From: Halobacteria archaeon AArc-dxtr1 | GTDB lineage: Archaea > Halobacteriota > Halobacteria > Halobacteriales > Natrialbaceae | Assembly: GCA_025517425.1 (NCBI GenBank) | Contig: JAOPJY010000001.1 | Coordinates: 606,217 to 670,216, forward strand | Direction: 5' to 3' | Length of the DNA stretch: 64,000 nt | In this document: in pieces, positions 4,573 to 8,198 of the stretch | How positions within the stretch are numbered: the first letter of the stretch is position 1 | Layout of the letters: every line of letters begins with the position of its first letter | Position numbers and translations under genes: made by a program | Notes under the pieces: generated by a model | The model's input: the letters and a program-made list of their open reading frames with translations, nothing else | Told to the model about the DNA's origin: nothing | The model's database searches: none

Positions 4573-5480
4573 CGGGTCTGTCCGTCGCCGGACTCCTGTT
4601 GCAAGGCCCCATCGAAACGACACTACAGGATCTGGGGTGGGTCGACGAGGCGATCGCGGCGAGTCTGGCCGGCTTCATTCGGTTCGTGCTCGGGTTCCTC
4701 ATCGTCTACACGGTCGGTCGGCTCGTCGTGATCCCGCTTCTTGGGCGCGGAATGGACCGTCGATCGCTCGACAAACACGCCCGAAAGCCACTCGTTCTGA
4801 TCGCCCGCTTTGGCGTCGCGTTCGTCGCCATCGCCGTCGCGTTCGGATTCGCCGGCTACGGAAACTTCTTAGTCTCGATGGCCGGCATCGCCGCCGCCGG
4901 CGCGCTCGCGGTCGGACTCGCCCTCCAGAACGTCATCGCGAACTTCGTCGCCGGCGTCTTCATCTACACCGATGAACCGTTCCGCATCGGCGACTGGATC
5001 GAGTGGGACGGCCACTCTGGCGTCGTCGAGGACATCAGCCTCCGGGTGACGCGCGTTCGGACGTTCGACAACGAGTTGCTGACGGTTCCAAACGCCGAAC
5101 TCACCGGTGGGGTGATCAAAAATCCGGTCGACGGCGACCGGCTCCGCCTGAAGTTCGACTTCGGTATCGGCTACGACGACGACATCGAGTCTGCCTCGGA
5201 GATCATCGTCCGCGAGGCAGAGAGACATCCGGAGATCATGGACGATCCCGCCCCCTCGGTTCGCCTGACCGAACTCGGCGACTCCGACGTCGGCCTCCAG
5301 TCGCGCTTCTGGATCGAACAGCCCTCGCGCGCTGACTTCGTGCGGATCAAAGGCGAGTACGTCCAGACTGTCAAAGAACGGTTCGACGAGGAAGGAATCG
5401 ACATCCCCTACCCAGTCCGAACCGTCGAGGGTGGACTCGACATCGCCGGCCAACAACAGATCGTCGAGTCGACACCGTAG
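4569..5480 (+). CDS. Mechanosensitive channel of the MscS family
   Basis: 303 residues. Opens under membrane tension to release solutes on osmotic downshock. Three hydrophobic segments are visible, at about 35-57, 76-98 and 101-120. The last is the pore helix, with alternating Gly/Ala (AGIAAAGALAVGLALQNVIANFVAG). The cytoplasmic beta domain follows (FRIGDWIEW and TVPNAELT segments), then an alpha/beta C-terminal domain ending near the family length for small MscS proteins. It overlaps yhbY by 4 bases. It converges with the halogenase-like gene over a spacer of two palindromes. Confidence 0.9.
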   Translation: MTGLSVAGLLLQGPIETTLQDLGWVDEAIAASLAGFIRFVLGFLIVYTVGRLVVIPLLGRGMDRRSLDKHARKPLVLIARFGVAFVAIAVAFGFAGYGNFLVSMAGIAAAGALAVGLALQNVIANFVAGVFIYTDEPFRIGDWIEWDGHSGVVEDISLRVTRVRTFDNELLTVPNAELTGGVIKNPVDGDRLRLKFDFGIGYDDDIESASEIIVREAERHPEIMDDPAPSVRLTELGDSDVGLQSRFWIEQPSRADFVRIKGEYVQTVKERFDEEGIDIPYPVRTVEGGLDIAGQQQIVESTP

Positions 5481-5498
5481 ATTCCCGTACTCCTCTCG

Positions 5499-5535
5499 GC
5501 TCACGTGAGCGTGACGGACACCGTTCGAACGGTGT
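5499..5535. repeat. Two perfect palindromes between convergent genes
   Basis: GCTCACGTGAGC (5499-5510) and ACACCGTTCGAACGGTGT (5518-5535) are both self-complementary over their full length. A third short inverted repeat, TGAGA-G-TCTCA, follows near 5557. They lie between the ends of mscS and the halogenase-like gene. They could act as a bidirectional transcription stop or as protein-binding sites. No T-run is present. Confidence 0.7.
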
Positions 5536-5579
5536 GAGGTTGTGTTACGTGGACTGAGAGTCTCAACCCCCGAGCCTTG

Positions 5580-7109
5580 TTACCGGTCGGGAACGCTGAT
5601 AATATCGGAGTACAACTCTTCGTACGAATAGAACGTTTCAACCTCGTCCGAGAGGCGTGCCTCGTACTCTTCTACCCGTTCGACCACCTCCGGCTCGTAA
5701 TCGACATCGATCTCGTCGTAGAAGTTGGATCGAACTCCGAGACCGTGGAGAACCCGATAGTGGATCAAATGCGGGAACCGACCCGCAGCGTTGGGCCGCA
5801 AAAGCGTATTATCCGCTCTATCGATAAGTGAAAAGCCGTACGTTTGGTAATTTTCGTACTCTGGGATACTGCTCAGATCGTACGCATCGTCACTGGAGAC
5901 GGAATCCCAGAACTCGGTTCCGCCAGGCGCACACCGGTAGTGTATCTGGACGAACGTGTTAATATTCTCCCAGACGGTCTGTACGTGCGTATTGTACATC
6001 TCGCGCGTACCGTCGTAGTTTAGATGCGAACTCCCTTCGATGATGTCTGCCAAATCCAGTGCCAGTAACGCGTTCGACGTGAGCGCCGTCGATTGAATCG
6101 GTTCGACGAAACCGAGGGCGTTTCCGACCGCGATACAGTTCCCAGTCCACGCGTTCGGATGGTAGCCGGCTGTAAACTCGTAGTGATCGACCGACCGGCT
6201 CAACTCGGCGTCCCCGATGTGTTCGAGAAGTTCCTCAGTTGCCGCCTCCTCGGAGAGATAGTCGGAGGCGTAGACGTATCCGATATCGCGGTAGTCGACG
6301 GTGTCGATCTGCCAGAACCATCCCGCAGTACCCGTTGTGATTACGGTTGCCGGGACGATCTCGGAGAGGTCGATATCCGTTCCGGCGACGACTGCCGAGT
6401 CAAGCGGGAGGTCGAACTGCGTGAACGACGACGGCAGTTCCCCGATCAGCGTCCGTCTAAATCCGGTGGCATCGAGATAGAGGTCCGCCTCGTAGGTCGC
6501 CGTCTCACTCGAGACCTGCTGTATCTGTCCCGCAGAGACCGAGACGGAGTCGATGAGATCGTCGACCAGCGTGATTCCTCGCTCCTCACAGAGAGTTCGA
6601 AGAAACCCGTTGAAGCGATCGACATCCAGGTGGTACGCGAAGTGCCAATATTTGTCCAATCCTCTGTCCTCACTCTCGGATGGTTTAAACGGCGTCTTTC
6701 GCTGAGAAACCATCTCCGTGTTGACCGTCTCGAACCGGTCCTGGGCGTATCGATAGTGCATCTCCTCGAACTGTTCGGCTGTGTCCGAGGCGAGCGGGTA
6801 GTTTCCACTGTCGAACTCGATGTGGAACGGCTCGCAGTCCCGCCACGATTTAAAGTATACCGACGATTTCCAGACGGGAGCGACCATACTGACGAACCGA
6901 GCTTCGTCGATCGATAAGTCGTCGTGGAGCACCGAAACCAGTGTGTCGAACGTACTTTTCCCGATGTTCGGAACCGGCGTCGAAAAGTCGTCGATTACAC
7001 GAATCTCGAGCCCGGTCGTTTTTGCTTCGAGCGCGAGAGCGGTGAGCAAGCCAACATCCCCTCCCCCAACGATCGTTACGTCCCGTATAGGTTGCGTGGA
7101 GACACCCAT
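5580..7109 (-). CDS. Flavin-dependent tryptophan halogenase-like protein
   Basis: 509 residues from the ATG at 7109. A GTG at 7130 in the same frame would add 7, but a TATA-like box 26 bases before the ATG favours 7109. FAD-binding VGGGDVG lies near residue 14. The halogenase signature WxWxI is present (GWFWQI, about 262). The Lys of the active-site tunnel is kept (VWKSSVYFKSW, Lys81, matching Lys79 of PrnA). The partner Glu (Glu346 of PrnA, in PLEST) is Gln339 here (EPIQST). The family chlorinates or brominates aromatic rings using FADH2 from a separate reductase; none is adjacent. The Gln makes true halogenase activity doubtful. Base composition is visibly less GC-rich than its neighbours, suggesting later acquisition. 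Confidence 0.75.
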   Translation of the reverse strand: MGVSTQPIRDVTIVGGGDVGLLTALALEAKTTGLEIRVIDDFSTPVPNIGKSTFDTLVSVLHDDLSIDEARFVSMVAPVWKSSVYFKSWRDCEPFHIEFDSGNYPLASDTAEQFEEMHYRYAQDRFETVNTEMVSQRKTPFKPSESEDRGLDKYWHFAYHLDVDRFNGFLRTLCEERGITLVDDLIDSVSVSAGQIQQVSSETATYEADLYLDATGFRRTLIGELPSSFTQFDLPLDSAVVAGTDIDLSEIVPATVITTGTAGWFWQIDTVDYRDIGYVYASDYLSEEAATEELLEHIGDAELSRSVDHYEFTAGYHPNAWTGNCIAVGNALGFVEPIQSTALTSNALLALDLADIIEGSSHLNYDGTREMYNTHVQTVWENINTFVQIHYRCAPGGTEFWDSVSSDDAYDLSSIPEYENYQTYGFSLIDRADNTLLRPNAAGRFPHLIHYRVLHGLGVRSNFYDEIDVDYEPEVVERVEEYEARLSDEVETFYSYEELYSDIISVPDR

Positions 7110-7130
7110 TATCTGCTGTGTGAAGCACAC

Positions 7131-7140
7131 CTGTATAACG
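7131..7140 (-). promoter_or_regulatory. TATA-like box deciding the halogenase-like start
   Basis: On the minus strand CGTTATACAG is centred about 26 bases before the ATG at 7109. This is the spacing expected for a leaderless transcript starting at that codon rather than at the upstream GTG. Confidence 0.5.
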
Positions 7141-7271
7141 TTTTTTCAGGTGTGTTGTCGAGAACGGTTGTTCAGATGACCTACCTCCACCCACTGTCTC
7201 CAACGGCGGGATATCGGTCGGCCGACTACGCTCTGTACTGGCGCTCGTCGAAAGGAATGATGAAATATGAA

Positions 7272-7580
7272 TGTGGACGCCCGCGGTTGCCCGGCGTTCC
7301 GGCCGGGGGAGTCCCGATTGCCTCCTCCACCCCGCGACCCGTCGAGCGACAGGTGTCCGGCGGTCCACTGCTCGCTTCCGCGCCTGATGGGCTGTCGCCG
7401 GCTAACCGCGATGGGGCGTCCCTGCGGACGGCCACCGCGGACCGCTGTCCCCGACGGACGAGGCTTCTGCGTTGGCTCTCGGGGCCCCGGCCGGTCTGAC
7501 CGGACGCCCACGGGATTCGGCCCCCGCTGAAGACCATACTGCGGGTGTCGAGCAGGGCCTAACTGCCCGACCTAGTCCAA
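7272..7580 (-). ncRNA. ffs: Signal recognition particle RNA (7S RNA)
   Basis: Read on the minus strand, this stretch has the archaeal SRP RNA architecture. The S domain shows helix 6 with a GNAR tetraloop (GUCC-GCAG-GGAC, loop at 7422-7425). It is followed by UUAGCCGG and helix 8 with AUCAGGCGCGGAAGCGAGCA (loop GGAA at 7376-7379); these are the parts bound by SRP19 and SRP54. The 5' end UGGAC (about 7579-7575) pairs with GUCCA near 7274-7278, giving archaeal helix 1. The Alu part begins with GGUCGGGCAGUUAGGCCC. Length is about 309 bases, as in haloarchaea. Ends are placed from helix 1 and from the upstream box and may be off by several bases. Reading frames across it are spurious. Confidence 0.92.
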
Positions 7581-7599
7581 TTCAGTATAGACGAGTCAC

Positions 7600-7609
7600 G
7601 GTTAAGGGC
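7600..7609 (-). promoter_or_regulatory. Probable TATA box of the SRP RNA gene
   Basis: On the minus strand GCCCTTAAC is centred about 26 bases upstream of the proposed 5' end of the SRP RNA near 7578. A separate T/A box on the plus strand (GAAGTTAAGTA, about 7670-7680) serves the ferritin-like gene at 7704. Confidence 0.5.
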
Positions 7610-7703
7610 CTTTCGTCTCTGACCGGTATTCCAGAGAATACACGCAGGAGCGTTCGCGAACGGGAAGCATGAAGTTAAGTACGACGACCGCACAACTCAG
7701 GCC

Positions 7704-8198
7704 ATGAGCCTGGGACAGCGCGTCTCGACCGACCACCAACTCATTCGACTGCTCCAGATCGGAGTCGTCTTGGAGGAGGTCGTCGAGTCACGTGCCGCCC
7801 ACCACCTCGAGTCGCTGCCGCCCGAAGAGCGGGCGGACGTCGACGAAGAGGTACGGGAACTGCTTGCTGACGCTGCCAACGAATCGGCCGATCACCGGGA
7901 GCGTCTCGAAGATCTGATCGACGAGTTCGAGGCCGAGACGGTCGGCTACGAGGAGATCAACGCCCTCGTCGATGCACGATACGGTCCGCCGGAGGACACC
8001 GACGGCGTGCTCTACGATCAGCTCTGCAACGAGGAGACAGCCTACAAGTTCTACGACGACCTCATCGCCGCAATCGAGTCCTCGGATGTCGAGTTCGCCG
8101 TCGACCGAGAGCGACTCATAGCGACGCTCGTATCGATCCGGGAGGAAGAACGCGACGGCGTCGAGGAAGTGACCGAGCTGATGGAGCGACGAGCATGA
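7704..8198 (+). CDS. Ferritin-like (rubrerythrin-related) protein
   Basis: 164 residues, entirely helical, with paired Glu/His spacings typical of a four-helix di-iron bundle: VLEEVVESRAAHH (about 23-35), a second helix with ESADHRERLEDL, NEETAYKFYDDL in the third, and EEERDGVEEV in the last. No rubredoxin domain is visible. The gene lies 43 bases upstream of a DtxR-type metal regulator, and the pair probably forms one unit for iron handling or oxidative protection. A TATA-like box 27 bases before the ATG supports the start. The fold assignment is fairly sure; the reaction is not known. Confidence 0.65.
   Translation: MSLGQRVSTDHQLIRLLQIGVVLEEVVESRAAHHLESLPPEERADVDEEVRELLADAANESADHRERLEDLIDEFEAETVGYEEINALVDARYGPPEDTDGVLYDQLCNEETAYKFYDDLIAAIESSDVEFAVDRERLIATLVSIREEERDGVEEVTELMERRA

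Follow-up and report, generated by a model that had tools for sequence, protein, structure and literature searches.

A haloarchaeal clade of flavin-dependent halogenase-fold proteins with two replaced acidic residues

The gene and its surroundings

The window analyzed in this study, a stretch of 64,000 nucleotides from the genome of Halobacteria archaeon AArc-dxtr1, contains a gene whose predicted product has the fold of bacterial flavin-dependent halogenases (FDHs), enzymes that add chlorine or bromine to other compounds. The gene, its motifs and the features upstream of it are as follows.

5580..7109, minus strand: gene for an FDH-fold flavoenzyme (P0001; PF04820, AlphaFold2 model), ATG start, 509 codons plus stop
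6087..6104, minus strand: EPIQST, residues 336–341, in which Gln339 (6093–6095) is in place of the catalytic Glu (PrnA E346, RebH E357), by alignment
6303..6320, minus strand: WFWQID, residues 264–269, with WxWxI kept and the usual Pro changed to Asp
6867..6869, minus strand: Lys81, the catalytic Lys (K79 of RebH and PrnA), by alignment; conserved in haloarchaeal and bacterial homologs
6951..6962, minus strand: GKST, residues 50–53, with Lys51 at the position of the flavin-loop switch Glu of GE[AGS]T (RebH E49), by alignment
7050..7067, minus strand: FAD-binding GxGxxG motif, GGGDVG, residues 15–20, by alignment
7126..7154, minus strand: putative promoter of the gene, with TATA-like GTTATAC (about 7134–7138) and a flanking 8-bp inverted repeat, CACACCTG/CAGGTGTG
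7271..7582, minus strand: archaeal SRP RNA gene (RF01857, 188.6 bits), an incidental neighbor

The open reading frame is uninterrupted, and its product of 509 amino acid residues matched PF04820 (Trp_halogenase) with 242.9 bits (E 8e-72; cut-off 21). Residues K81, W264/W266, E336, Q339 and K51 correspond to K79, W282/W284, E354, E357 and E49 of RebH, respectively. Thus, the FAD site, WxWxI motif and active-site Lys that an earlier note on this DNA had described as intact are all present, and so is the Gln that it placed at the position of the partner Glu, whose codon reads CAA on the minus strand. The Pro of WxWxIP is also absent from many bacterial homologs. In addition, the aromatic-cage residue H109 of RebH is Ile97 in the window protein, while F111 is kept as F99.

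Similar to what the earlier note stated, the GC content of the gene (55.8%; GC3 70%) is lower than that of the window (63.3%), and the SRP RNA gene lies upstream in the same orientation, 161 bp from the start codon. Congeners retain Rpr2-YhbY-MscS but lack the FDH gene there, and their SRP RNA and 164-aa/DtxR block are located elsewhere. This arrangement places the FDH gene at a synteny breakpoint, with the junction within 5480–7704, and excludes a link to the SRP RNA gene. Because homologs sit in unrelated places and the SRP RNA of congeners lies elsewhere, the low GC and the adjacency are considered incidental. The inverted repeat CACACCTG/CAGGTGTG, for which the chance expectation is about 0.03, could be an operator; it is not shared by the homologs of the FDH gene. 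The genome is 2.8 Mb long at 99% completeness, and near-complete genomes of congeners are about 4.1–4.7 Mb.

The description of the gene as an orphan was also borne out. The near neighbors tested, encoding MscS channel, Rpr2, DtxR, PLD and HEAT proteins, were ordinary, and the single Flavin_Reduct gene of the genome is unlinked, about 922 kb from the FDH gene. Neither an NRPS condensation domain nor LanC was found in the window's genome, which excludes an NRPS or lanthipeptide context. No dedicated reductase or biosynthetic cluster is nearby or conserved across the clade. The neighbors of homologs vary by genus and include a tRNA methyltransferase, primase, succinate dehydrogenase, type II/IV secretion ATPase, GH3 and a solute-binding protein. 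The commonest neighbor family accounted for only 4 of 112 neighbors, and a conserved operon or partner was therefore ruled out. Some homologs are surrounded by sulfatase and glycoside-hydrolase genes, which are absent at the window locus. For instance, the homolog on a plasmid of Halomontanus rarus (L160 9001–10533) lies within an island of sulfatase and GH97 genes, hinting at a possible connection to sulfated-glycan metabolism.

Distribution and the two replaced acids

Of 392 Halobacteriales genomes, 25 contained the FDH gene, representing 16 of 95 genera. In the genome scan, which was seeded with haloarchaeal homologs, haloarchaeal loci of about 39–48% identity were followed by bacterial loci of at most 33%. 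A search with the general PF04820 model (E ≤ 1e-25) recovered the identical 25 genomes, which means that the haloarchaea sampled showed no conventional FDH with the Glu. By this measure, the haloarchaeal clade comprises the only FDH-type PF04820 proteins found in the 392 genomes. In a phylum-wide sample, matches were found in 3 of 393 genomes, all of the same order. The gene also occurs on haloarchaeal plasmids, and its products are named "tryptophan 7-halogenase" or "FAD-dependent oxidoreductase" by NCBI; the former, automatic label is probably misleading.

In a quick tree built without variant B or phenol halogenases, all haloarchaeal sequences were set apart by a single branch with an SH-aLRT value of 100 and a length of 1.79 changes per site, and the attachment of this branch to the bacterial FDHs was weakly supported. 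The tree and scans point to a single, previously undescribed clade seen only in salt-loving archaea. The dN/dS values over six close pairs were 0.23–0.35, which indicates that the gene is maintained by purifying selection. An origin from haloarchaeal viruses was ruled out, as matches on viral contigs were at most about 31% identical; two IMG/VR contigs (L145 and L146) carry FDH homologs about 30% identical to the query.

A metagenome-assembled genome of Halobacteriales (G048; L005, L010–L017) contains several FDH copies, some near genes for sulfatases and family 5 solute-binding proteins, as well as a broken copy in several frames (C130:32546–33769). On a plasmid of Natribaculum luteum (L163 7217–10371), an IS66 transposase gene splits the homolog. 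Finally, in genomes of Nostoc (L039, L043, L046, and L048), two FDH genes lie side by side; one falls near MibH in the tree, and the other is of a different type.

The residues were compared by aligning FDH sequences: 37 from haloarchaea, 36 from bacteria and five with solved structures. At position 339, Gln was found in all 37 distinct haloarchaeal sequences, and Glu in 36/36 bacterial and 5/5 solved FDHs. At position 51, 33 of 36 haloarchaeal sequences had Lys and the other three had Gln, and every bacterial (36/36) and solved (5/5) sequence again had Glu. The bacterial sequences were sampled among those nearest to the haloarchaeal clade, and more distant bacteria could still hold the Gln variant. 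Plasmid-borne haloarchaeal copies showed matching residues. Within the clade, a sub-branch (L038, L104, L113, and L162) has VGQGT and LQAT in place of VGKST and LQST, so that its switch position is Gln too. Further residues fixed only in the clade were D18, which lies inside GGGDVG and is Ser or Thr in other FDHs, D40-D41, R219, P235, T270, R274, T344 and S461; Y500 was, like S461, a clade-conserved C-terminal residue. Unchanged in haloarchaea and bacteria alike were the glycines of the FAD motif, K81, W264, W266, E336, P337 and T341. Despite an overall identity of about 40%, the catalytic Lys, both Trp residues of WxWxI and the FAD motif were invariant.

Thus, the Gln stands as the earlier note reported it, and it is not peculiar to one gene: Gln339 is a clade-defining residue, and a chance or private mutation is ruled out. 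A misaligned Glu is excluded as well: the EPxQST block is gapless, its E336 matches the universal EP Glu, and the active-site motif lines up with no other Glu. As judged from the alignment, both acids, which every bacterial relative examined has kept, are replaced alike in almost every member of the clade, which probably reflects an altered but real chemistry of this branch.

Predicted structure and known enzymes

The AlphaFold2 model, calculated from the haloarchaeal alignment, had a pLDDT of 87.4 and a pTM of 0.89. Nearly all of its top structural matches were FDHs. VIA-align gave Z values of 44.9 for SttH (472 residues, 2.5 Å), 44.1 for AbeH, 43.8 for PrnA and 34.1 for CndH. Residues 5–506 aligned with tryptophan halogenases, and this full-length match means that the C-terminal substrate-binding module is present in the modeled protein.

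MibH (5uao), the tryptophan-5 halogenase of a lanthipeptide, was the best PDB match by both sequence (230 bits) and Foldseek (TM 0.83). It has the same framework of FAD motif, WxW and Lys as the window protein, but the two are only about 25% identical and MibH possesses both acids, in GEAT and EPLESS. Moreover, its substrate is a lanthipeptide, whereas the window's genome is without LanC. The tryptophan halogenases RebH, PrnA, AbeH/PyrH and SttH are similar to the window protein in their full-length fold (Z about 35–45), K79, WxWxI and halide loop. Different from the haloarchaeal clade with its Lys51 and Gln339, they contain Glu49/Glu46 and Glu357/346, and the cage residue H109 of RebH is likewise not shared. 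VirX1 (6qgm), an iodination-preferring FDH of a cyanophage, scored 219 bits against the clade profile, and its GEST resembles GKST; unlike the window protein, it keeps both acids (E47 and E355).

QhpG and other PF04820-like monooxygenases belong to a common FAD-binding superfamily. The window protein scored 33.7 bits with the QhpG model, far below the cut-off of 240, and matched FDHs far better. Neither outcome that the earlier note had named as refuting its reading, another Glu at the active site or a clear grouping with non-halogenase monooxygenases, was thus seen. With the PF04820 fold, GxGxxG, WxWxI (IDT for IP) and a Lys at the tunnel end, it has the features of the flavin-dependent halogenase superfamily. 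Of the residues expected of variant A tryptophan/indole halogenases, the catalytic Glu (PrnA E346) and the switch Glu (RebH E49) are missing. The open-licence papers searched contained no description of an FDH from haloarchaea or of what it makes.

Possible function of the haloarchaeal proteins

The mechanism of the Lys/Glu pair in flavin halogenases is debated. K79 of PrnA is essential, as K79A abolishes activity (PMC5727139). In modeling of PrnA, a protonated Lys and a deprotonated Glu346 are needed for retaining HOCl and for deprotonating the intermediate (PMC9764358), and phenol halogenases are without the catalytic Glu (PMC8407142). The flavin-binding loop ends in the switch Glu (RebH E49, PyrH/AbeH Glu46), which flips on FAD binding to open or close the substrate gate (PMC11840605; PMC6863734) and couples the FAD and tryptophan sites (PMC11840605). 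The halide site of Thal is built from backbone NH groups (PMC6863734), so side-chain changes beside Gln339 need not destroy it.

The haloarchaeal proteins combine an FDH fold, an FAD motif, WxWxI, a catalytic Lys where the HOX tunnel ends and purifying selection with the replacement of two acids. The best explanation, to which we give about even chances, is that they form a haloarchaea-specific subfamily of two-component, variant-A-like FDHs that would make HOX and use Lys81, without a Glu base, on a substrate that is electron-rich and not tryptophan. FADH2 would be supplied by a general, unlinked flavin reductase, and halide, plentiful in a haloarchaeal cytoplasm with its molar chloride, would react with the C4a-hydroperoxide to give HOX. 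HOX would then move to Lys81 and be activated by it. Gln339 could hydrogen-bond HOX or the substrate and would serve neither as a base nor as an electrostatic stabilizer of the cation, so the substrate is probably an electron-rich compound (phenol, pyrrole, enol or alkene type) and not the benzo ring of tryptophan. The proton would be taken by water or by the substrate's own OH or NH, and the coupling of FAD to substrate binding through the flavin-loop switch is probably re-tuned by Lys51. Weighing against this explanation are the missing dedicated reductase or cluster, the lack of haloarchaeal FDHs in the papers searched, and the effects of the Glu-to-Gln change on known enzymes: PrnA E346Q is about 100-fold slower (PMC5727139; PMC8407142), and the corresponding variant of MalA is inactive (PMC8407142).

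Less probable, though the strongest of the alternatives, is an FDH-derived flavin monooxygenase or oxidase that, having lost both acids, would oxygenate by means of its flavin hydroperoxide instead of oxidizing halide. The joint replacement of two universal FDH acids, the very long stem branch, the orphan context and the change of the Pro of WxWxIP to Asp, although many bacterial homologs also lack this Pro, are consistent with it. WxWxI has been proposed to block monooxygenation, and its conservation together with Lys81, the low QhpG score and the structural matches to FDHs argue against such an enzyme.

Patchy, stand-alone occurrence and the association with plasmids and IS elements would suit a low-selectivity generator of hypohalite that serves defence or stress signaling by releasing HOX or a haloamine of Lys81 and has no dedicated small-molecule substrate. 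As deprotonated Glu346 helps to retain HOCl in the modeling of PrnA (PMC9764358), Gln could weaken this retention. Such a function is considered unlikely, given that the full substrate-binding module and the clade-conserved S461 and Y500 suggest a bound substrate and that self-damage would be expected. A catalytically dead relic, such as a flavin-binding regulatory protein, is very improbable: loss of the catalytic Glu, the low GC of the window copy and the broken copies elsewhere would fit, but the invariant catalytic Lys, Trp residues of WxWxI and FAD motif and the dN/dS values speak against it.

Returning to the halogenase explanation, its boldest form, which we advance tentatively and at somewhat less than even chances, is that these proteins represent the first archaeal FDH subfamily, adapted to molar chloride and halogenating, or making hypohalite, with the Lys alone, with Glu fixed as Gln and the switch Glu as Lys. 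To our knowledge, the change of Glu to Gln in FDHs has been known mainly as a damaging laboratory mutation. In the haloarchaeal clade, the change is shared by the entire lineage and kept under purifying selection, and the residue coupling flavin and substrate binding has been lost as well. If the explanation is true, the clade would be a naturally evolved test of the roles of both acids in FDHs, and the haloarchaeal lineage would provide enzymes stable in salt and a way to test the mechanism directly.
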